Shown piece after piece: positions 1,247-10,840 of a stretch of 57,285 nucleotides of DNA. Position numbers and translations under genes: made by a program. Within the stretch, counting starts at the first letter, position 1, and every line of letters starts with the position of its first letter. This stretch comes from an uncultured Luminiphilus sp. Its GTDB lineage: Bacteria > Pseudomonadota > Gammaproteobacteria > Pseudomonadales > Halieaceae. The notes beneath the pieces were generated by a model. The model had not been told where the DNA came from. It saw only the letters and a list, made by a program, of their open reading frames with translations, and did no database searches. The stretch lies in the NCBI GenBank assembly GCA_938091995.1, contig CALKNZ010000033.1:1-57285 (forward strand). The letters run 5' to 3'.

Positions 1247-1647
1247 ACAAGGGTGTGTTGCGAGGGTCGCGATTTTCTACAACTGCTGCCTCCAAGTCAA
1301 CCTGTAGCAGTTACTAAACGTGGCGTCTAGTGCGTATTGTCTGGCGGTGGCGGCATCTGTGCTCCTTTTCTCCAACGGACGCGTTCATGGTCTCTTCGAC
1401 GCTCACTCTTTAAATGATGCAGGGATTGCGCGCGACCTGACCGCCGTATTGCCAGGTGTTCCAGCGAGTCCCCCTCACGACGCGCTAGCCGGAGACTACA
1501 GCAAAACAGTAAATGCTCTGGTGGCAGGCGCTCGCCAGCTTGAGTGTTTTAGACAAAGCCCTTGGGGACATTAGTAAACACCCGATGGCCAGAATAATCC
1601 TTACATCGGCTGACTTTTGTGAGGAGCGGTGTGTTCCTGCGGCGATT
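1247..1647. other. Gene-poor stretch between tRNA-Met and the porin gene
   Basis: Apart from the tRNA promoter at its left end I see no recognisable gene. A GTG-started open frame of 84 codons (1320-1574, plus strand) lacks a ribosome binding site and resembles no family I know. The porin gene ends at 1648 reading into this stretch, and I found no clear hairpin plus T-run terminator for it. It could be decayed coding sequence left by island integration, but nothing proves that. Confidence 0.4.
1272..1300 (-). promoter_or_regulatory. Probable sigma-70 promoter of tRNA-Met
   Basis: On the minus strand TTGACT (1300-1295) is followed after 17 bp by GAAAAT (1277-1272), then a G+C-rich discriminator CGCGACCC typical of stable-RNA promoters. 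Start of transcription would be near 1264, about 18 nt before the mature tRNA. Confidence 0.45.
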
Positions 1648-2916
1648 TCAGAGTTTCAGCTGAACGGTTAACCAAAACTTGGTCGTATCGGTTAGGAAAT
1701 CTTTCGCTTGATAGTCGGCGAACTTTGCCTGCAGACTCAACTGCTTGTTGACTGGCCACGTCGCAATCATATCGAACTCAGTGCCGTATTGGGTGTCCAG
1801 AGATTCTGCCTTGAAGTCATGGTAGAAGGCGCCAACCTTTACCGGGCCTAATTTTCCGCTGATGCCGACATAGGCGTCTTCAATGCCATTGGCAGGCGTC
1901 GCTAGGAATTTATCAGCCCAACCTTGAAATAGGTGTAATGTAGCGAGTGGTGTTTTAAAGCCAACGCCGCCACCAGTGTTACCATTTTCACCTGAGCCAA
2001 GCACCTCATATCCAATTTTTAGCGTAACGGGTTTGAAGCTGGCGTTAAGCTCAGCCATGTAATAATCGGCGTCGTAATCAAGTTCACTATTGCCCTCGCT
2101 AGACTGTGTGGCAAAAGCGGCTTTTACACCGAGCCACTCCGAAAACTTACCCTGGTATTCAATACCGAACGTATTTGTAGAGTTGTTCACGGTTTTTCCT
2201 GCGGTATACCCGCTTTGTGGATCTACATCTATAAGGTAGCCATAGCCGGAGACAGAATGTGCCTCTGCTAGGTTGTAAGTTGCTCGAAGGAAAATATTGT
2301 CTCCTTCCCAGTCTGCCGGTTGTGCACCGTCGTTGGGCCCAAAAATTCTGTTGATGTTGTAAACATAGCTGGCATCTACCGACAGATTTTGTGTGGGATT
2401 GAGTTGTATCCTCAGGCCATCGTAGGTTTGCTCATTCTGTCTCCATGCAACACCGCCAACAAAACGTTGAGAGGCATTTATTATCCGCTGGCGCCCAAAT
2501 TTTGCGTTCCATTTGTCTGCGTCATATGCCAGCCATGCCTGATTGAAGTCTGTTGCCTCAGGATCTGCGACAATTGGGTATTCTGTATTTCCATTGGTAG
2601 TAGAGTTGTAATTGTCAGTCAATACACTGGTGATGTTGTCAAATTCTAACTGCGCGCTAAAGCCTCGCAAGGTTGTCGTGGTCAACGTCAATCGAGAGCG
2701 TAGTGTTGACGCATCTGCATTTTTCTCTACACCATCCTGATCAACGCCTTCATAGCGATACCTTAGATCTACACTCGCCGTGCCTCCTTTGACCATTTCT
2801 GCCAAGCTATCAAAACCACTAGTTTCTGCATTTGCGGTATTGCTTGCGATAAGCAGCGCTAGCACTTTTGTCGCTGATAAAAAGTGTATGTGCGTGTCCG
2901 AATATTGCCTTGTCAT
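1648..2916 (-). CDS. Outer-membrane porin (alginate-export-like beta-barrel), likely part of the cyanate regulon
   Basis: A 422-residue protein with a signal peptide (hydrophobic stretch about residues 18-27, cleavage after ANA at 30). The remainder shows alternating short strands and aromatic girdles of a beta-barrel, with the pattern LRYRYE, STLRSRL, EFDN, YPIVADPE, KFGRQRI, RFVGGVAWRQNEQTYDG that I associate with proteins annotated as alginate export family (PF13372-like); this name does not imply alginate as substrate. An in-frame start at 3021 exists, but ATG at 2916 has GGAG 8 nt upstream and places the signal peptide correctly. It lies downstream of the cynF-like regulator gene on the same strand, and has its own sigma-54 promoter and upstream array matching those of the cyanate operon. 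Inferred role: passage of cyanate or a related small anion across the outer membrane. Confidence 0.8.
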   Translation of the reverse strand: MTRQYSDTHIHFLSATKVLALLIASNTANAETSGFDSLAEMVKGGTASVDLRYRYEGVDQDGVEKNADASTLRSRLTLTTTTLRGFSAQLEFDNITSVLTDNYNSTTNGNTEYPIVADPEATDFNQAWLAYDADKWNAKFGRQRIINASQRFVGGVAWRQNEQTYDGLRIQLNPTQNLSVDASYVYNINRIFGPNDGAQPADWEGDNIFLRATYNLAEAHSVSGYGYLIDVDPQSGYTAGKTVNNSTNTFGIEYQGKFSEWLGVKAAFATQSSEGNSELDYDADYYMAELNASFKPVTLKIGYEVLGSGENGNTGGGVGFKTPLATLHLFQGWADKFLATPANGIEDAYVGISGKLGPVKVGAFYHDFKAESLDTQYGTEFDMIATWPVNKQLSLQAKFADYQAKDFLTDTTKFWLTVQLKL

Positions 2917-3027
2917 TGTTCGACTCCGAAGGGTTTCCACCATGATGAGTACTGCGAGGAAGCAATGGTGAATGTCGCTGCCTGCAAGCTTGTTTTTCGG
3001 GACGCTTCCGCCCTCGAACAAAGTTTT

Positions 3028-3042
3028 GCAAACGCCGTGCCA
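3028..3042 (-). promoter_or_regulatory. Sigma-54 (-24/-12) promoter of the porin gene
   Basis: The minus strand reads TGGCAC (3042-3037), five bases, then TTGC (3031-3028), an exact match to the sigma-54 consensus with invariant GG and GC at the required distance. Transcription would begin near 3016, giving a leader of about 100 nt before the porin ATG at 2916. Confidence 0.85.
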
Positions 3043-3070
3043 TTCTTTTTTGAGTCTTTAAGTCTATGAT

Positions 3071-3083
3071 TATCAATGGATTA
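3071..3083 (+). promoter_or_regulatory. Putative IHF site between activator array and porin promoter
   Basis: TATCAATGGATTA matches the IHF consensus WATCAANNNNTTR at every fixed position. It lies between the upstream activator array (3118-3163) and the -24 element (3042), where a DNA bend is expected at sigma-54 promoters. One consensus match in A+T-rich DNA can occur by chance. Confidence 0.5.
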
Positions 3084-3117
3084 AAACTTTTTACGTTGGT
3101 AAAGCTGGCTGCGGAAA

Positions 3118-3163
3118 TTCGTAGATTCTGAATCTTCGTAGTTTGAGTTATGTAATTTCGTAG
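3118..3163 (-). promoter_or_regulatory. Three-site upstream activator array of the porin promoter
   Basis: On the minus strand CTACGAA occurs at 3163-3157, 3141-3135 and 3124-3118, spaced 22 and 17 bp. The same three sites with the same spacing precede the cyanate operon (5110-5155). The two arrays align without gaps at 38 of about 50 positions, including the 15-mer TACGAAGATTCAGAA. The last site lies 75 bp from the -24 element. Probable binding site of the CynF-type activator encoded between the two arrays. Confidence 0.75.
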
Positions 3164-3190
3164 CGATTTGATACTTACCAGGGGCCGCAC

Positions 3191-5053
3191 TCAAACTTTA
3201 AAGCTTCGGGTATCTATGTTGAGCTTCTTTATTCGCGAAGCGAGAGTGGTGGGCTTGATGTCCAATATTGCAGCAGCTCCGTCCTCTCCGAAAACCTTGC
3301 CTTTGGATCTTTCGAGCGCGAGTAGAATGTTTCGCCGCTGCCGCTGTTTGCTTTGAGATTCCTGCTCGACTTCACCCTGTGGAGAGGCGAGCACTTTGCT
3401 GGCCGTCTGATGGTTACCCGCCAGCGAGTCCCCAATCCGAATGGTATCGCCCTGAGAAAGTATTACCTGTCGTTCTATAAAATTTTCCAGCTCTCTAATA
3501 TTGCCCGGCCAATGATAATTGCCAAGTTTTTCTAGTTCGCTTAGTGGCATTCTTAGATTGGTTTTACTGGCACGCGTAGCAGCCTTTTGCAGAAACATTT
3601 GGGCCAGCAGGGGTATGTCCTCTCGACGCTCACGTAAAGGCACTGAGGTAATTGGAAAGACGTTGAGTCGGAAATAAAGATCTTCGCGAAATTTCCCAGC
3701 CTCCACCAGCTGGCGTAACTCTTTATTGGTGGCGGCGATAATTCGGACATTTACGTGTCGGGTTGTAGATTCTCCGACTCGCTCGAACTGCTGCTCCTGG
3801 AGTACTCGAAGAAGTTTTCCTTGCAGATGAAGCGGTATTTCGCCCACCTCATCCAGGAATAGTGTGCCACCGTCAGCTAATTCAAATCGTCCCGGCCTGT
3901 CGCCTGTGGCGCCGGTAAAAGCGCCTTTAATATGACCAAAAAACTCACTTTCAAAAAGCTCTTCCGGAACCGCTGCACAGTTCACCCGGATAAGTGGCCT
4001 TTGAGAGCGATCACTTTGTTCGTGTAAAGAGCGCGCAATCAGCTCCTTGCCGGTGCCCGACTCACCAACAATCAGGACGGTAGCTTCCGTTGGTGCGACG
4101 AGATTGATCTGACGCAATGTATTCTGAACTCCTGCACTACGGCCAATAATGCGATGGTGGTTGTACTCAATACTGATCTCCTCTTGCAGGTACGCGTTCT
4201 CGAGTTCGAGTCGATTTTTTAGCGATTCGACCTCCTCTAGAGCCGCCATTAAACGTTTGCGTCCTGCCTTTTTCTCGGAGACATCTCGAAAGATGACAAC
4301 AACACCCACAATTACACCAGCCTCCTTGATAGGCGTGCTGGTGTATTCAACATCTACGGCCTTGCCGTTTCGAGACCAAAATATATCTTCATCTTCTGTA
4401 TGAACCTTCCCACTTCTGAGTGATTCAAATATAGGGCAGTCATGCAGCTCAAACAGAGAGCCATCGCCGTGGCTGTGATGCACTATGGTGTGCATGTTGC
4501 GTCCAATCAGCTCTTCTAGGGAATAACCCAATATTCTTAGTGCTGCTGGGTTTACGAAAGTGGTGTCCCCTTTGCTGTCTACACCGTAAATGCCCTCGCC
4601 AGCGGCATCCAATAACAAGCGGTGCTCGTGCTCGAATTCGCGGAAGACATTGGCAACACGGTTCCATTGACTCAATCCCGAGTTGTATAAATCGATAGCA
4701 TCTGCCTGCGCTTTGCGTTGAGCTATTTCTCGAAGCGGTTGCAGGTTCAGATGTAGTAGCCGCTCTTCGCCAACTTGGCTGAAACGACCGAACACCTCGA
4801 TACCACACTCTTGCTCTTGAATGACGATGGTTAAGTCACTGCATAGGCCGCGGGTTTTTTCTAGTACTTCCTGAGTAAAGACCACCAGTTTGGGTAAATC
4901 TGGTTTGAATAAGTCACTGGGGCGTATCGCCTTCAGCCCGGCACGGTCCAGTCGCATTAAACGGCAGGCTTCCTGATTGGCCTCAACGAGTACATCCCGG
5001 TAGGGGTCTACCGCAATTTGGGGCGTCGCAGAGTGATGATAAAGATTATCCAT
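3191..5053 (-). CDS. cynF: Sigma-54-dependent activator with PAS domains, CynF-type regulator of cyanate genes
   Basis: A 620-residue enhancer-binding protein with no membrane segments. Residues 10-115 look like a degenerate PAS domain; 145-260 form a clear PAS domain containing HDCPIF; a coiled coil (265-295) leads to the AAA+ domain (303-530) with Walker A GESGTGKE (330-337), the sigma-54 contact loop GAFTGA (377-382) and Walker B GGTLFLDE (395-402). A Fis-type helix-turn-helix ends the protein (about 575-615). It is divergent from the cyanate operon and lies between two identical operator arrays. I recall a sigma-54 regulator named CynF in the cynFABDS cluster of Pseudomonas pseudoalcaligenes; the symbol is assigned by this context and architecture. 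The PAS ligand is unknown; cyanate, ammonium status or redox are all possible. Confidence 0.88.
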   Translation of the reverse strand: MDNLYHHSATPQIAVDPYRDVLVEANQEACRLMRLDRAGLKAIRPSDLFKPDLPKLVVFTQEVLEKTRGLCSDLTIVIQEQECGIEVFGRFSQVGEERLLHLNLQPLREIAQRKAQADAIDLYNSGLSQWNRVANVFREFEHEHRLLLDAAGEGIYGVDSKGDTTFVNPAALRILGYSLEELIGRNMHTIVHHSHGDGSLFELHDCPIFESLRSGKVHTEDEDIFWSRNGKAVDVEYTSTPIKEAGVIVGVVVIFRDVSEKKAGRKRLMAALEEVESLKNRLELENAYLQEEISIEYNHHRIIGRSAGVQNTLRQINLVAPTEATVLIVGESGTGKELIARSLHEQSDRSQRPLIRVNCAAVPEELFESEFFGHIKGAFTGATGDRPGRFELADGGTLFLDEVGEIPLHLQGKLLRVLQEQQFERVGESTTRHVNVRIIAATNKELRQLVEAGKFREDLYFRLNVFPITSVPLRERREDIPLLAQMFLQKAATRASKTNLRMPLSELEKLGNYHWPGNIRELENFIERQVILSQGDTIRIGDSLAGNHQTASKVLASPQGEVEQESQSKQRQRRNILLALERSKGKVFGEDGAAAILDIKPTTLASRIKKLNIDTRSFKV

Positions 5054-5092
5054 AACAGCATTACCAATGGCGCAAATCTGTAAAGCGATGCA

Positions 5093-5107
5093 GCAACTAT
5101 TGGGCCA
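5093..5107 (-). promoter_or_regulatory. Possible sigma-54 promoter of cynF
   Basis: The minus strand reads TGGCCC (5107-5102), five bases, then TTGC (5096-5093): one mismatch from the -24 consensus, with GG and GC kept at the right spacing. Transcription would begin near 5081, 28 nt before the cynF ATG. The nearest activator site (5110-5116) almost touches the -24 element, a poor position for classical activation, so the array might repress or modulate here. Confidence 0.4.
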
Positions 5108-5109
5108 GA

Positions 5110-5155
5110 TTACGAAATTCCATGAACAGCATTACGAAGATTCAGAAATAACGAA
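5110..5155 (+). promoter_or_regulatory. Three-site upstream activator array of the cyn operon
   Basis: Sites TTACGAA (5110-5116), TTACGAA (5132-5138) and TAACGAA (5149-5155) are spaced 22 and 17 bp, exactly as in the array upstream of the porin gene. TACGAAGATTCAGAA (5133-5147) is identical in both. The last site lies 76 bp from the -24 element of the cynA promoter. Confidence 0.75.
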
Positions 5156-5231
5156 TTATCGTAGGCGTCGCATCGCGGTAGTGAGCCTGGGAAGCCTTTC
5201 AAAAACAGTCACTTATAAAAATTAGTGGCGT

Positions 5232-5247
5232 TGGCACGGTGCTTGCT
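5232..5247 (+). promoter_or_regulatory. Sigma-54 (-24/-12) promoter of the cyn operon
   Basis: TGGCAC (5232-5237), five bases, TTGCT (5243-5247), preceded by T and followed within the spacer by GG: a full match to YTGGCACGRNNNTTGCW. Transcription would begin near 5258. Confidence 0.9.
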
Positions 5248-5364
5248 CCACACAGGATATGAAACCCATGGGAGCTTCCCAATAAAGCTTTTACGTTGGC
5301 TTGAGGTTCTAAGCGCAACATAAAAGATCATGTACTGCCGTCATAACGAACAGGAGCACCAAAT

Positions 5365-6834
5365 ATGAGCAACAAGAGTTTAGGTAACCCATTTGATGCC
5401 GAGAGTAGCCTGGCACACACCGCTAGCTGCGTCTGTGCCGTTTGCAAATCTGAACTGCAATCTGGTGAGGGGTTGAGTGATCGTGATAGGCAAATACTCA
5501 TGGAGCGTCAGATCTCCGACCAAGAATCGGTAAGGCACACATCTTCCAGCGCCGCTACAGAAACTTTTGGAAGCAGCGAGGACATGATGGATCGTGTTGT
5601 CGAAAACGCCATTGTCAGGGGCGTATTCGGCCACAATGATGCAAGCCGCAGGAACTTTATCAGGTTGGTGGGTGGGGGGACTCTAGCCGCTGCGTTAGGG
5701 ACCATGATCCCCATGGACAAAGTGAAAGCGGCGGTCAAAGACGCGATAGGACCGTTGGAAAAGACGAAGCTGAAGGTGGGCTTTGTCCCGATTACCTGCG
5801 CGACACCGATTATCATGGCGCAGCCCATGGGTTTTTACGCCAAATATGGTTTAGATGTGGATGTCATTAAAACTGCTGGGTGGGCCGTAGCTCGAGACAA
5901 GTCACTCAATGGCGAATACGATGCGTCTCACATGCTAACACCCATGCCATTGGCCATGAGTATGGGTGCTGGCTCAACCGCGACTCCCTACATTATGCCT
6001 GCGGTTGAAAACATCAATGGCCAGGCGATTGTTTTACACAATAAGCACAAGGATAAGCGTAATCCCAAGGACTGGAAGGGATTTAAGTTTGGTGTGCCTT
6101 TCGATTACTCCATGCACAACTTTCTACTGCGATATTACGTCGCAGAGCACGGTATCGATCCGGACAAAGATATTCAGATTCGGGTCGTACCGCCACCCGA
6201 AATGGTTGCCAATTTAAGGGCGGGAAACCTTGATGGGTATCTGTCCCCCGACCCATTTAATCAGCGAGCAGTTTTCGAAAAAATTGGTTTCCTCCATGTT
6301 CTTACCAAGGATATATGGGAGGGCCATCCTTGTTGCGCCTTCGCCTGCAGTGAGAAATTTTCTACGGAAATGCCCAACACCTATGCGGCGCTGTTTAAGG
6401 CTATTGTGGACGCGACGCACTATTCCCATAAAGCAGAAAATCGCGCTGAAATTGCTAAAGCTATTTCACCCAAGAATTATCTGAACCAACCTGAAGTTGT
6501 GGTTAAGCAAGTGCTAACCGGACGCTACGTAGACGGGATTGAAAATAAGGTTCAGGACGTTCCAGATAGAATTGATTTTGATCCGTTTCCTTGGCATTCA
6601 ATGGCAGTATGGATTTTGACTCAAATGAAACGCTGGGGTTATGTAGAGGGTGATATTGATTATAAGGGTATAGCAGAGCGTGTCTACGTCGCTGCTGAAA
6701 CGGGGCAGGTAATGCGTAATCTGGGCTACACCCCCCCCGAATCTACCTATAAAAACTACACCATCATGGGCAAGGAGTTTGATTACAACAAGCCTGAAGA
6801 ATATATCAATAGCTTCGCTATTAAACGGGTTTGA
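5365..6834 (+). CDS. cynA: CmpA/NrtA-family substrate-binding protein of the cyanate ABC transporter, Tat-exported
   Basis: A 489-residue member of the nitrate/bicarbonate/cyanate-binding family that delivers the anion to the CynB-CynD complex. Typical family patches are visible, such as LKVGFVPITCATPIIMAQ at the start of the binding domain and LSPDPFNQRAV in the middle. A twin-arginine signal SRRNFIR (94-100) with a hydrophobic stretch to about 114 indicates folded export. Unusually, about 93 residues precede the twin Arg, and they hold a cysteine cluster, His18 and C22-x-C24-x-x-C27. AGGAG 9 nt upstream supports the ATG at 5365. It is the first gene of cynABDS-DUF1348 under a sigma-54 promoter. 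Cyanate as substrate is inferred from cynS; sequence alone does not exclude nitrate or bicarbonate. Confidence 0.9.
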   Translation: MSNKSLGNPFDAESSLAHTASCVCAVCKSELQSGEGLSDRDRQILMERQISDQESVRHTSSSAATETFGSSEDMMDRVVENAIVRGVFGHNDASRRNFIRLVGGGTLAAALGTMIPMDKVKAAVKDAIGPLEKTKLKVGFVPITCATPIIMAQPMGFYAKYGLDVDVIKTAGWAVARDKSLNGEYDASHMLTPMPLAMSMGAGSTATPYIMPAVENINGQAIVLHNKHKDKRNPKDWKGFKFGVPFDYSMHNFLLRYYVAEHGIDPDKDIQIRVVPPPEMVANLRAGNLDGYLSPDPFNQRAVFEKIGFLHVLTKDIWEGHPCCAFACSEKFSTEMPNTYAALFKAIVDATHYSHKAENRAEIAKAISPKNYLNQPEVVVKQVLTGRYVDGIENKVQDVPDRIDFDPFPWHSMAVWILTQMKRWGYVEGDIDYKGIAERVYVAAETGQVMRNLGYTPPESTYKNYTIMGKEFDYNKPEEYINSFAIKRV

Positions 6835-6835
6835 T

Positions 6836-7663
6836 ATGAGCTCTCTTGCGGCAAGATCGGCGCTCGTTTCTGTTTGCCTGTTGGTGGGCCTCCTTGGCCT
6901 GTGGGAGGCTCTGAATCAGCCGCCAACGGCGAGTGAGGCGCTTACCGAGTTTGAAATACTGATGGGCGGAGTTGACCAGGAGGCCCGAGTGCCTCCGCCA
7001 TCTCAGGTTATGAGTCATGCTTGGCATGAACTGAGTAATCCTTTCTATGATGCGGGCCCCAATGATAAGGGCATTGGCATACAGTTGGCTTACTCGCTGT
7101 TTCGCGTGCTTACTGGGTATGTCAGCGCCGCACTAGTCGCGATCCCATTAGGTTTTATTATTGGCATGTCGCCGCTAATGCACCGGGCGCTGAATCCATT
7201 CATTCAGGTTCTGCGTCCCATCTCTCCATTAGCTTGGATGCCGCTCGCACTTTTTATTATTAAAGATTCTGAGCAATCGGCCATCTTCGTCATCTTTATT
7301 TGTTCGATTTGGCCCATGCTCATCAACACGGCTTTTGGCGTGGCAAATGTGCGTAGCGACTGGATTTCGGTGGCACAAACCCATGAGCTAAGCCAATTGA
7401 AGACGGCCTTCTTGGTCATACTGCCTGCAGCAGCACCTACTATATTAACGGGCATGCGGATTTCAATCGGTATTGCGTGGCTGGTTATTGTTGCCGCGGA
7501 GATGCTAGTCGGTGGTACTGGCATTGGGTACTACGTTTGGAACGAGTGGAACAACCTAGATTTGAACAGCGTCATATTTTCGATTCTTATGATTGGCGTG
7601 GTTGGCATGGCTCTCGATTTTGCTTTGGGTCGCGTTGAAAAGCTTGTGCAATATAAGGAGTGA
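6836..7663 (+). CDS. cynB: Cyanate ABC transporter permease
   Basis: A 275-residue inner-membrane permease of the NrtB/SsuC class. After an N-terminal membrane helix (residues 5-25) comes a periplasmic loop, then five further helices, with the cytoplasmic coupling loop around HELSQLKTAFLVILPAAAP that contacts the ATPase. The ATG at 6836 is one base after the cynA stop, indicating translational coupling; there is no good ribosome binding site of its own. A longer in-frame start at 6779 overlaps cynA and is unlikely. It forms the channel between CynA and CynD. Confidence 0.88.
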   Translation: MSSLAARSALVSVCLLVGLLGLWEALNQPPTASEALTEFEILMGGVDQEARVPPPSQVMSHAWHELSNPFYDAGPNDKGIGIQLAYSLFRVLTGYVSAALVAIPLGFIIGMSPLMHRALNPFIQVLRPISPLAWMPLALFIIKDSEQSAIFVIFICSIWPMLINTAFGVANVRSDWISVAQTHELSQLKTAFLVILPAAAPTILTGMRISIGIAWLVIVAAEMLVGGTGIGYYVWNEWNNLDLNSVIFSILMIGVVGMALDFALGRVEKLVQYKE

Positions 7664-7666
7664 ACT

Positions 7667-8569
7667 TTGAGAAACGCGTTTGTCACCATCGAACAATTGG
7701 GCAAAACCTACAGTTCAAAAAATGAAGAGCTTGTGGTGTTTGAGGATGTCAGTTTTGGCATTGAGAAAGGGGAATTTGTATGCATTATCGGACATTCTGG
7801 ATGTGGTAAATCCACAATACTTAATGTTCTCGCTGGACTCGACAAGCCATCCCATGGCGGCATCATCATGGATGGGAAAGAGGTAATAGGGCCGAGTCTA
7901 GATCGCGGGGTGGTATTTCAAAACTACAGCCTATTGCCCTGGCTTTCGACGCTGCAGAATGTGAACTTTGCAGTGAAAGCGCGCTGGCCCAACTGGAGCA
8001 AGGCAGATGCCCTTGAGCACAGTGTGGGATTCCTGAAAATGGTGGGTCTGGGCCATTCTCTGCATAAAAAGCCATCTGAGCTATCCGGAGGTATGCGCCA
8101 ACGGGTCAGTATTGCCCGGGCTTTTGCAACGAACCCTAAATTGCTGCTTCTCGACGAACCCTTCGGCGCGCTAGATGCTCTGACCCGGGGTGTAATCCAG
8201 GATGAACTTTTGAAAATCTGGAGCGAAACACAGCAAACGGTTTTCATGATTACTCATGATGTCGATGAAGCGATTTTGTTAGCAGACAGGATTTTACTCA
8301 TGAGTAACGGTCCTAGAGCCCGGGTTGCCGAGTCGGTCAGTATCAATATATCCAGGCCGCGGCAGCGAGGCACCATTGTCGAAGATCCTGCTTACTACAA
8401 GATCAGAAATTACCTTGTGAATTTCCTTGTGAATCGCGCTGGAGACGAATCCGAGGTCGGCGGGGCACATTTCTCAGTGCCTAAGGTCGTCGATCCTGCC
8501 GCCGAGAGGGCAGATCAACGAGATACTTCTGAAATCGATATTGCGGCTCTGCAGGTCGCGACTAATTAG
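7667..8569 (+). CDS. cynD: Cyanate ABC transporter ATP-binding protein
   Basis: A 300-residue ATPase of the NrtD/SsuB/TauB class. Walker A is GHSGCGKST (42-50), followed by the Q-loop (VFQNYSLLPW), the signature LSGGMRQR, Walker B LLLLDEPFGALD and the switch His in ITHDVDEA. The start codon is TTG at 7667, with AAGGAG six nt upstream and only 3 bp after cynB. The C-terminal 40 residues after the ATPase fold are acidic and unassigned. It energises import through CynB. Confidence 0.9.
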   Translation: MRNAFVTIEQLGKTYSSKNEELVVFEDVSFGIEKGEFVCIIGHSGCGKSTILNVLAGLDKPSHGGIIMDGKEVIGPSLDRGVVFQNYSLLPWLSTLQNVNFAVKARWPNWSKADALEHSVGFLKMVGLGHSLHKKPSELSGGMRQRVSIARAFATNPKLLLLDEPFGALDALTRGVIQDELLKIWSETQQTVFMITHDVDEAILLADRILLMSNGPRARVAESVSINISRPRQRGTIVEDPAYYKIRNYLVNFLVNRAGDESEVGGAHFSVPKVVDPAAERADQRDTSEIDIAALQVATN

Positions 8570-8595
8570 CACTAACCTAAAAGCTGGGGATTTTT

Positions 8596-9036
8596 ATGAA
8601 TAAACTTGAAATGACAGACCTCATCGTTAGCACCAAAATCGAGAAAGGGCTAAGTTGGGAAAGCATGGGTAATGATCTAGGGATGTCGCCGGTATGGCTG
8701 ACGTCTGCGTGCTTAGGTATGAACAGTGCTCCCCCAGAGCGGGCGAGCGCGATAGCAGAGTACCTTGGGCTGGGTAATGAGGTAGCTAAGGCTCTTGAGG
8801 CATTTCCAACTAAAGTATGGGAGCAGGCTGTGCCAACCGACCCTTTGATTTATCGGCTTTACGAAGTTGTTGGGGTCTATGGTGAGACGCTTAAGGAGGT
8901 CATCCAGGAAAAATTTGGGGACGGCATCATGAGCGCTATCGATTTCTCTATGGAGGTGGATAAAATTGAGGACCCAAAGGGGGACCGTGTGCTCCTCACT
9001 TTGAATGGCAAATTCTTACCTTATAAAAGCTGGTGA
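8596..9036 (+). CDS. cynS: Cyanase (cyanate hydratase/lyase)
   Basis: A 146-residue protein of usual length that converts cyanate and bicarbonate to ammonia and two CO2 (through carbamate) in the cytoplasm. The N-terminal helix-turn-helix-like domain (about 1-75) precedes the catalytic domain. The triad is present as Arg87 and Glu90 in [11 protein letters not shown] and Ser113 in [13 protein letters not shown] lies just upstream of the ATG. It is the fourth gene of the operon and the reason for assigning the transporter to cyanate; the ammonia formed can serve as nitrogen source, in line with sigma-54 control. Confidence 0.97.
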
Positions 9037-9076
9037 CGACGGCTTTATTGAGAGAAAACTATTAAGGGGGAAATCT

Positions 9077-9550
9077 ATGAAAGAAGGCGTACGTCCGCCC
9101 TTGCCACCATTCTCCTACGAGGATGCACTTGTCAAAGTCAGGCGAGCTGAGGATGCGTGGAATGGAAAGAGCCCTGAAGCGATTGCTTTGGCCTACTCTC
9201 TGGATTCTATTTGGCGAAATCGAAATCAGTTTTTAAAGGGTCGTGCGGAAATCATTGAGTTCCTGACGAACAAATGGCTGAAGGAGCTTGATTACCGTCT
9301 GATAAAAGAGATGTGGGCTTTTGGTGCAGATAAAATTGCGGTCAGATTTGCCTACGAATGGCACGATGATCGGGGCTGTTGGTATCGATCTTACGGAAAT
9401 GAAAATTGGGAGTTTGATGAGTTGGGTCTGATGAAGACCCGTTATGCGAGTATCAACGATATGCCCATTAGCGAGAGCGACAGAAAATTCTGCTGGGAGG
9501 GGAGTGCTCGCCCCGCAGACTATCCTGGGCTCACAGCACTGGGATGTTAA
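9077..9550 (+). CDS. DUF1348 / NTF2-like protein, last gene of the cyn operon
   Basis: A 157-residue protein of the DUF1348 (SnoaL-like, nuclear-transport-factor-2 fold) family: conserved stretches are [60 protein letters not shown] and [14 protein letters not shown]. An earlier ATG at 9005 overlaps cynS, but the ATG at 9077 has AAGGGGG 7 nt upstream and gives the family length. It lies 40 bp after cynS in the same direction, so it is probably co-expressed with cyanase. Function is unknown; NTF2 folds bind small molecules in a central pocket, so a role with cyanate, carbamate or a by-product is possible. Confidence 0.85.
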
Positions 9551-9642
9551 AAAGTGGGTCATGCCCCTGCCTAGCGCGCAGTAGTCACTACAATGTTGGT
9601 GACAAAAAACAGTAGCTACAATGTTAGGCAAGAATCAAAGAA

Positions 9643-9687
9643 AGCCCCTCAGCGTGCAGTGCGCCAGTTGAACTGGCTCTTAGGGGC
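9643..9687. terminator. Imperfect nested inverted repeat between convergent cyn operon and ychF
   Basis: AGCCCCT (9643-9649) pairs with AGGGGC (9682-9687), enclosing the near-perfect palindrome CCAGTTGAACTGG (9664-9676). It lies in the 195-bp gap where transcripts from both sides converge, a fitting place for a two-way terminator, but no T-run follows on either strand. Just before it CTACAATGTT is repeated directly at 9588 and 9616. Confidence 0.25.
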
Positions 9688-9745
9688 GAGAGGGCGCTGG
9701 TTGGCTGAAGGTAGCTAAACCCTCTAGGTTAAACAGTGCTCTGAA

Positions 9746-10840
9746 CTAAACATTGAATCGGAAGTGAATAACGTCGCCATCGGCTAGGATGTACTCCTTA
9801 CCCTCAAGGCGCCAGCGCCCGGCATCTTTCGCGCCTTGCTCCCCCTTGTGTGCGATGAAGTCGTCATAGCCAATCACTTCAGCTCGAATAAAACCTTTTT
9901 GAAAATCTGTGTGAATCACACCAGCGCCCTGTGGCGCTGTGGCGCCAACTGGCACAGTCCAGGCTCTGACCTCTTTGGGCCCGGCTGTGAAGTAAGTTTG
10001 TAAATTGAGAAGCTTGTAGCCGGCACGAATCACCCGATTTAAGCCGGGTTCTTCCATGCCCATTTCAGCCAGAAAATCCTGTTTCTCGTCGTCTTCGAGT
10101 TCAATGATTTCTGATTCTAGCTTGTTACAAATGGCAACAACCTCAGCGCCTTCGGCGGCGGCGATGCTCTGAACGGTATCGAGGTGGGGGTTATTCTCAA
10201 ACCCGTCCTCTGCAACATTGGCAATATAAAGCGTGGGCTTGGTGGTTAGCAGGTGAAGCGTGCTCAGAAGGGCTTGCTCGTTGTCGTCTAAGGTCAGCGC
10301 TCGAATAGGCTGGGCTTCATTGAGCTGTGGCAAAAGTTTGTCCTCTAACAACTGCTTCATTGCGATCGATTCTTTATCGCCGCCTTTCGCTGTGCGAGTC
10401 ACCTTAGTTAGCTGCTTTTCGCAAGACTCGAGGTCGGCGAGTGCAAGCTCTGTATTGATGATCTCTATGTCCGATGTAGGATCTATTTTATTGGCCACGT
10501 GAATCACGTTGTCATCTTCGAAGCAGCGCACGACGTGAGCAATGGCATCGGTTTCGCGGATATTAGCCAAAAACTGATTGCCTAAGCCTTCACCCTTGGA
10601 GGCGCCTGCCACCAAGCCTGCAATGTCGACAAACTCCATGGTGGCAGCAATTTCGCGTTCCGGATTGATCAGAGCAGCAATTTTCTGCTGTCTGGAGTCC
10701 GGAATGGTCACGACCCCCGCGTTAGGCTCGATCGTACAAAACGGAAAATTTTCCGCGTCAATACCGGCCTCGGTGAGTGCATTGAACAGGGTAGATTTGC
10801 CGACATTCGGTAATCCTACAATGCCGCATTTGATACCCAT
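9746..10840 (-). CDS. ychF: Redox-regulated ATPase/GTPase YchF (OLA1 family)
   Basis: A 364-residue cytoplasmic P-loop NTPase of the Obg-HflX superfamily that associates with ribosomes. G1 is GLPNVGKST (8-16), G3 is DIAGL, and the G4 position reads NKLE rather than NKxD, the change that explains the ATP preference of YchF. A coiled-coil insertion (about 140-190) and a C-terminal TGS domain (about 280-364, ending [11 protein letters not shown]) complete the family layout. It lies 29 bp downstream of pth on the same strand, the order also known from E. coli and Pseudomonas. Confidence 0.97.

Follow-up and report, generated by a model that had tools for sequence, protein, structure and literature searches.

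Among described cyanate systems, the closest to the one considered here is cynFABDS of Pseudomonas pseudoalcaligenes (oleovorans) CECT5344. According to the available passages of its account, CynF is essential for cynABDS, expression of cynABDS is induced by cyanate and repressed by ammonium, a putative sigma-54 site precedes cynA, and nitrate/nitrite transporters may also carry cyanate (PMC6627978). The words porin and IHF (integration host factor) are absent from the main text of that paper. In alpha- and gammaproteobacteria, cyanate lyase is enriched among sigma-54-regulated genes, as stated in the accessible part of another study (PMC12316311). Here we describe a cyn locus of an uncultured Luminiphilus sp. 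(assembly GCA_938091995.1). The window analysed is the entire contig CALKNZ010000033.1 of 57,285 bases, and the genome comprises 2.88 Mb in 130 contigs and is 81% complete. Like CECT5344, it shows divergent cynF and cynABDS, a Fis-type sigma-54 activator and a putative sigma-54 promoter before cynA; unlike the CECT5344 account, in whose available passages no operator is described, it has a second promoter with the same array of sites, located before a porin gene (PMC6627978). We propose, with a probability of about 0.8, that both arrays are CynF operators driving sigma-54 promoters.

The initial annotation had noticed two perfect -24/-12 boxes, each preceded by three short sites, and these observations hold. 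The box TGGCAC-N5-TTGC occurs exactly twice in the window, at 3042-3028 on the minus strand and 5232-5246 on the plus strand. Three copies of YWACGAA, with starts 22 and 17 bp apart, are present at 3163-3118 (minus strand) and 5110-5155 (plus strand), the last ACGAA being 75 and 76 bases from the -24 box. A shared 15-mer (TACGAAGATTCAGAA) has one copy at each array, and the gene between the arrays does encode a sigma-54 activator, as judged by Pfam. The gapless similarity of the two arrays was also recovered, the best match being 37 of 50 positions and not the 38 of about 50 originally counted; 100 letter-shuffled pairs reached at most 28. When the whole genome was searched, as had been suggested, the exact array pattern gave these two matches and no other (0 for a reversed control pattern), and each TGGCAC-N5-TTGC is equally distant from one of these only two exact arrays. 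The two regions resemble each other in the array and the -24/-12 box only: 10-letter blocks elsewhere, compared in register, share mostly 1-4 letters and at most 6. The nature of the sites had to be corrected, in that the YWACGAA elements are the left halves of palindromes, ACGA-N4-TCGT (Table 1). The perfect IHF match in the porin promoter (3071-3083) was found again, with 9/9 letters of WATCAANNNNTTR; this consensus and the sigma-54 consensus used for scoring are our own assumptions.

The two arrays flank a gene whose 620-aa product is an enhancer-binding protein of the CynF type. Pfam and PDB profiles place in it a PAS domain (residues 145-258), an AAA+ domain (302-468; PF00158, E 2.1e-72) and a Fis-type C-terminus, and residues 6-104 are weakly PAS-like. 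No Pfam helix-turn-helix model matched CynF at E 0.001, and a C-terminal helix motif is visible in the translation. An AAA+ domain with GAFTGA, also visible in the translation, and a Fis-type C-terminus are the marks of a sigma-54 enhancer-binding protein. Divergence of cynF from cynABDS, with the cyanase inside the operon, assigns it to the CynF type.

In relatives, the regions 5' of cynA contain three ACGA-N4-TCGT palindromes in a row, complete in most of them. This motif differs from the sequence of the site of NorR, the E. coli activator considered below. A profile built from four orthologues was used to collect homologous regulators, and the best 80 of at least 536 confirmed loci (L033-L112; L numbers denote loci and G numbers genomes) have regulators 77% to 50% identical to CynF. 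Thirteen of 81 regions were excluded from measuring (4 for weakness of a dyad pair, 9 because the sequence 5' of the annotated start was too short), as was L047, which has no cynA nearby. In the 68 regions measured, the window included, the offset between the starts of dyads 1 and 2 is 22 bp in 23, 21 bp in 39 (mostly Bradyrhizobium and kin, by record titles), 23 bp in 4, and 24 and 18 bp in one each; the step from dyad 2 to dyad 3 was fixed at 17 bp in the measuring script. In an alignment of 21 foreign operators, no or little variation (at least 90% agreement) is seen at 22 of the 24 box positions. Both window arrays keep 12/12 of the left-half letters. The cyn array keeps 8/12 of the right-half letters, the same as L046, and the other 20 foreign operators keep 10-12. 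By the description derived here, three dyads 56-71 bp before a -24/-12 box, such an operator is present for the window CynF, with incomplete right halves.

A sequence-only model was built from the 21 foreign operators, with both window copies excluded; these operators were picked from 80 loci for a clear 22/17 layout, which the E-values favour, and the E-values are rough. In this genome the model finds exactly two sites, at cyn (36.6 bits, E 8.6e-9) and at the porin (29.8 bits, E 1.2e-6). Of 47 genomes searched, 45 have any match at E 0.5 or better. Three partly overlapping samples gave 23 genomes with a match among 390 of the order (E 0.001 or better), 17 among 369 of the class (E 0.001) and 17 among 398 of the phylum (E 1e-4). 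The array, whose presence at related cyn loci the initial annotation had wished to see checked, is there, its best site being mostly within 1.5 kb of a CynF homologue. In the order sample this distance is below 1.5 kb in 22 of the 23 array-bearing genomes, the exception (L240) being a site close to one end of a contig of 5.3 kb. The same holds for 14 of 17 in the class sample; the regulator of G622 adjoins another of its sites, and none is near in G782 and G844. Homology to CynF is confined to the AAA+ and C-terminal part in G651 (L250, L288) and G731 (L281). A CynF homologue without an array match occurs in G081 (49%, partial) and G110 (L047), and G066 has a match only at E 0.5. One match at E 9.7e-4 (L292) lies among gyrB/dnaN-like genes and is probably due to chance. 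A search of plasmids for CynF gave 21 records, 40-51% identical and 17 of them from Acinetobacter. The arrays beside CynF in relatives, together with the matches of the foreign model, support the original suggestion that one activator controls both units. It could be argued that CynF activates without the arrays, which would then serve autoregulation or bind some other protein; the position of the cyn array, between cynF and cynA, would allow it to act in both directions. However, arrays accompany CynF-like regulators even where no cyn gene was seen in the fetched stretch (L274, L276, L277, L278, L282), and promoters on the cynA side form two phase classes by their distance from the array. We regard this explanation as very improbable.

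The phase classes emerge when the gap separating the -24 box from the end of dyad 3 is measured. Promoters were picked within 30-115 bp, ties being broken towards 70 bp. Among the 68 promoters, 39 lie at 56-60 bp and 27 at 66-71 bp, with outliers at 52 and 82, so that the two classes differ by roughly one helical turn. The window distances are 69 bp (cyn) and 68 bp (porin). The 66-71 class of 27 consists of 24 foreign loci with a promoter, the two window promoters and L062, which has no convincing promoter (score 11/20); the promoters of L034, L035, L043, L045, L048 and L074 are imperfect. These classes suggest, from natural sequence alone, a face-of-the-helix rule for a sigma-54 activator. 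A position-specific IHF test covered the 66-71 class. An IHF-like site (at least 7/9) stands at -28 to -30 before the -24 box in 20 of its 24 foreign loci (all except L053, L067, L074 and L075); 2000 letter shuffles gave 1.06 such loci on average and never more than 5. In the window, such a site is found at -29 in both promoters, with shuffle fractions of 0.013 and 0.005. At any position in the 68 promoters, IHF matches are barely above shuffles (mean best 6.9 versus 6.2 of 9); the excess lies at -29 in the 66-71 class.

Several observations weigh against a porin under CynF. First, the right halves of the porin array keep 6/12 letters, below all 21 foreign operators, and because of this loss its affinity may be low. 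Second, none of the other genomes among the 47 has a second separate site at E <0.01 (best 0.014 in G071 and 0.021 in G111), and two separate sites are seen in this genome only, both among the 390 order genomes at E 0.001 and in the phylum sample. Third, 37 of 56 array-bearing genomes have porin homologues, none with a second array at the thresholds used. Conservation of the porin array in relatives was considered and rejected, none being found at the thresholds used in the genome-sample searches, and comparative support for a porin under CynF seems confined to this genome. Finally, orthology with the CynF of CECT5344 is putative, on the grounds of gene order and regulator class.

Such observations may be taken to mean that inverted duplication around cynF left a copy of the cyn operator at the porin, that this copy has decayed and lost its function, and that cynABDS alone is regulated. 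The two arrays are indeed mutually inverted on either side of cynF, half of the right-half letters of the porin dyads are lost, and the other cyn genomes searched yielded no second array. In dyad 2, the window arrays also deviate from the consensus by the same two letters, and outside the boxes they agree in 18/29 letters, versus a mean of 12.6 over all pairs of 23 operators, so that they may have a common origin. However, 18/29 is also reached by pairs with foreign operators (WINpor-L033, WINpor-L046 and WIN-L033) and is exceeded by WINpor-L104 (22). Moreover, the porin promoter region has retained the whole set of features, namely all 12 left-half letters, the two step lengths of the array, a perfect -24/-12 box 68 bp from dyad 3 and the IHF-like site at -29. 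No similarity to the cyn promoter is seen in the sequence surrounding and separating these elements, whereas a decaying copy should have kept its flanks for as long as its sites. We therefore consider a decayed copy unlikely. Support for a recent duplication of the cyn operator was likewise not obtained, as the similarity ends at the array edges and 18/29 is matched by cross-genome pairs.

The porin belongs to the Pfam family Alginate_exp (PF13372, 51.3 bits against a cut-off of 25.2). With the NCBIfam Opr porin model it scores 37.6 bits, below the cut-off of 150. Its N-terminus is signal-peptide-like, as read from the translation, and no relative was found in the PDB by sequence at E 1. In a sample of relatives, porin homologues are present in 23 of 97 genomes, this genome included, and the neighbourhoods of 20 of the 22 others were fetched. 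A CynA, CynB or CynD homologue lies near the porin in 11 of the 20 (L194, L195, L200-L206, L209 and L212). L200 holds the cyn operon itself as well, and L196 has only a weak ATPase match 5 kb away. The one neighbour ATPase tested (L203) is above the TIGR01184 nitrate cut-off, and none of five neighbour substrate-binding proteins tested reached an NCBIfam cut-off. In relatives, this porin family appears to be often near NrtABC-like transporter genes.

The closest porins, 60% identical, are found in G057, with no CynA/CynB/CynD-type neighbour seen, and in Candidatus Litorirhabdus singularis (G097). The latter also has the nearest CynF, CynA, CynB and CynS among L033-L112 (76-77%, 89%, 90% and 92%; best 80 of at least 536). 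Downstream of its porin (L321) come genes for an ANTAR response regulator, two NMT1_2 proteins, a permease with TIGR01183 as its closest model though below the cut-off, a TIGR01184 ATPase and NirB, a gene order which we take to be nasT-nasS-nrtABC-nirB. Like the window porin, the porin that heads this nitrate cluster lies 3' of a perfect sigma-54 promoter; unlike the window porin, it has no array that the operator model could find. The porin family goes with nitrate-type genes, and for this reason another sigma-54 activator, such as NtrC, may be suggested to drive the window porin too, the likeness of its array being incidental. On the other hand, the porin array was found by a model of other genomes' cynA-side operators (E 1.2e-6, as given above), at a cyn-type promoter distance, and no NirB above the family cut-off was found in this genome at its 81% completeness. 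Control by another activator is in our opinion very unlikely.

A further difference lies in the leader of the Litorirhabdus porin (L321:8480-8602), which contains a hexaloop hairpin and a terminator-like hairpin with a U run, and beside which the ANTAR protein is encoded. Such a pair of hairpins is expected of a leader read through by an ANTAR protein. The window porin leader folds too, without such a U run. Compared with shuffles, neither fold stands out strongly (z -1.9 in Litorirhabdus and -1.0 in the window), and no Rfam element was over threshold in the leaders, a tRNA gene being the sole match over threshold. In Litorirhabdus, the porin lies about 12.5 kb from the cyn operon on one contig, and in three more genomes (G119, G072 and G154, the last two of one genus) a porin homologue lies less than 2 kb downstream of the cyn operon. 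The neighbourhood of porin and cyanate genes therefore recurs, but without an array at the porin. It seems that in the window a porin of nitrate type has been placed under the cyanate activator.

In the window, the genes at 1648-9550 are in the order porin and sigma-54 activator (both minus strand), then cynA, cynB, cynD, cynS and DUF1348 (plus strand). In G015, whose ychF is 99% identical and the closest of 31 genus genomes searched, ychF is directly followed by tRNA-Met. Therefore, the segment 1322-9744 is an insertion that carries porin, cynF, cynABDS and DUF1348 together. In 56 other genomes of the genus, many of them incomplete, no full-length CynF was found (best match 4.1e-80); the orthologues in G071 and G072 match at 6.4e-231 to 1.2e-200. 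The G+C content is 48.9% in the cassette versus 52.2% in the contig to its right. The cassette is bordered by 9-bp direct repeats (8/9) at 1313-1321 and 9745-9753, and one comparison of 400 bases per border for transposon ends gave matches of at most 9 letters. A phage-type integrase gene (144-1133) ends beside the tRNA-Met gene (1170-1246), on the side away from the cassette, and the fetched G015 stretch contains no DNA match to it. An island carried by this tRNA integrase is not supported: the cassette is across the tRNA gene, and the empty site shows only the 9-bp repeats. The DUF1348 gene lies 3' of cynS, and it is near cynS in many cyn loci of relatives too.

Table 1. Positions of the regulatory elements and genes of the cassette in the window
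Feature	Position	Strand	Basis or remark
cyn dyad 1, ACGAAATTCCAT	5112..5123	+	left half intact, right half 2/4
cyn dyad 2, ACGAAGATTCAG	5134..5145	+	left half intact, right half 2/4
cyn dyad 3, ACGAATTATCGT	5151..5162	+	both halves intact
cyn IHF-like site, AAACAGTCACTTA, 7/9	5203..5215	+	29 bp before -24 box
cynABDS -24/-12 promoter	5232..5246	+	
porin dyad 1, ACGAAATTACAT	3150..3161	-	within model match 3109-3163, E 1.2e-6
porin dyad 2, ACGAAGATTCAG	3128..3139	-	
porin dyad 3, ACGAATTTCCGC	3111..3122	-	
porin IHF-like site, AATCATAGACTTA, 8/9	3059..3071	-	29 bp before -24 box; place and strand as in cyn promoters
perfect IHF match, TATCAATGGATTA	3071..3083	+	opposite strand, adjoins conserved -29 position
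porin -24/-12 promoter	3028..3042	-	
inserted 8.4-kb cassette (porin, cynF, cynABDS, DUF1348), between tRNA-Met and ychF	1322..9744		empty site in G015 (L213)
porin, Pfam Alginate_exp	1648..2917	-	Pfam; start codon hand-picked
cynF, sigma-54 activator, 620 aa	3191..5053	-	Pfam, PDB profile matches, Litorirhabdus relative
cynA, NMT1_2-type substrate-binding protein	5365..6834	+	Pfam
cynB, ATP-binding cassette (ABC) permease	6836..7663	+	Pfam; start codon hand-picked
cynD, ABC ATPase, TIGR01184 nitrate type above cut-off	7667..8569	+	Pfam, NCBIfam
cynS, cyanase	8596..9036	+	Pfam Cyanate_lyase
DUF1348 gene	9077..9550	+	Pfam; start codon hand-picked

Besides this genome, four genomes of the class sample (G596, G810, G622 and G829) have at least two separate sites. 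Their loci (L274-L278) encode a CynF-like regulator and have no match to other window proteins. In L274, L276, L277, L278 and L282, CynF-like regulators (42-55% by matched piece) are found with arrays, and the fetched stretches show no match to other window proteins and no cyn gene. The genes near the arrays of L274, L277, L279 and L282 include some for alpha/beta hydrolases, with haloalkane dehalogenases as their nearest kin (below cut-offs), an isochorismatase-domain protein, a short-chain dehydrogenase, an MlaC-like protein (below cut-off) and DUF3187; DUF1348 also adjoins the array-bearing hydrolase genes of L279. This looks like a sister regulon, with three-dyad operators before hydrolase-like and other genes and at least two of them in some genomes. 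Multi-target use of the three-dyad operator therefore seems to exist, but in the branch of L274, L276-L278 and L282. In nine other loci (L048, L052, L220, L225, L231, L235, L236, L239 and L260), matches to CynF and CynS are present with no CynA match in the stretch, and the cyanase is apparently under CynF without an adjoining importer.

The following mechanism may be proposed. When cyanate is present and ammonium absent, CynF dimers would bind the three palindromic sites, whose starts are separated by 22 bp (about two helical turns) and 17 bp (about one and a half), and form an active ring there. IHF at -29 would bend the 68-69-bp spacer into a loop, and the ring would open sigma-54 RNA polymerase at the -24/-12 box. 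Since cynABDS and the porin are preceded by promoters of one design, a single activator would increase expression of the cyanate ABC importer and the cyanase along with that of an outer-membrane anion pore. Passage of cyanate through the porin, to which its gene neighbours point, is less certain than the identity of both arrays as CynF operators. As to origin, we lean to the possibility that a complete CynF promoter design (three dyads, -29 IHF site, in-phase -24/-12 box) was built or copied before a nitrate-type porin, its sites being kept or rebuilt amid unrelated letters. Such a regulatory capture would have turned a one-operator cyanate switch into a mobile uptake module that extends from the outer membrane through the inner membrane to the enzyme.

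Neither a CynF operator nor a cyanate porin was described in the literature searched, which consisted largely of papers outside subscription. To judge from that literature, the operator anatomy and a porin under such an operator are probably new. The cyanate part appears to be a known kind of system, whose operator is now described, and the porin under the same operator is seen in one genome. A candidate operator is thereby supplied for a regulator known genetically, with no binding site described in the papers found. CynF targets become predictable in genomes, and an outer-membrane pore for cyanate is pointed to.

Outside cyanate metabolism, the closest mechanistic models are probably NorR and CbrB, which have in common three sites and assembly of an oligomer on the enhancer. 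Like CynF, NorR of E. coli adjoins its target, norVW, and its three enhancer sites are described, in the passages at hand, as essential and as a scaffold for the active oligomer (PMC2941729). Unlike NorR, which senses nitric oxide via a GAF domain, CynF has PAS-type N-terminal domains (PMC2941729). As in the window, CbrB of Pseudomonas putida uses three subsites on one helix face, with IHF between the sites and the promoter, as far as the consulted part of that work goes (PMC6296734). Unlike the window sites, the CbrB subsites are non-palindromic, and CbrB belongs to a global regulatory system (PMC6296734). According to the same part, spacing is kept where CbrB subsites are poor, and poor subsites are tolerated with the help of IHF (PMC6296734). 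By analogy, such tolerance fits the half-lost palindromes in the window.

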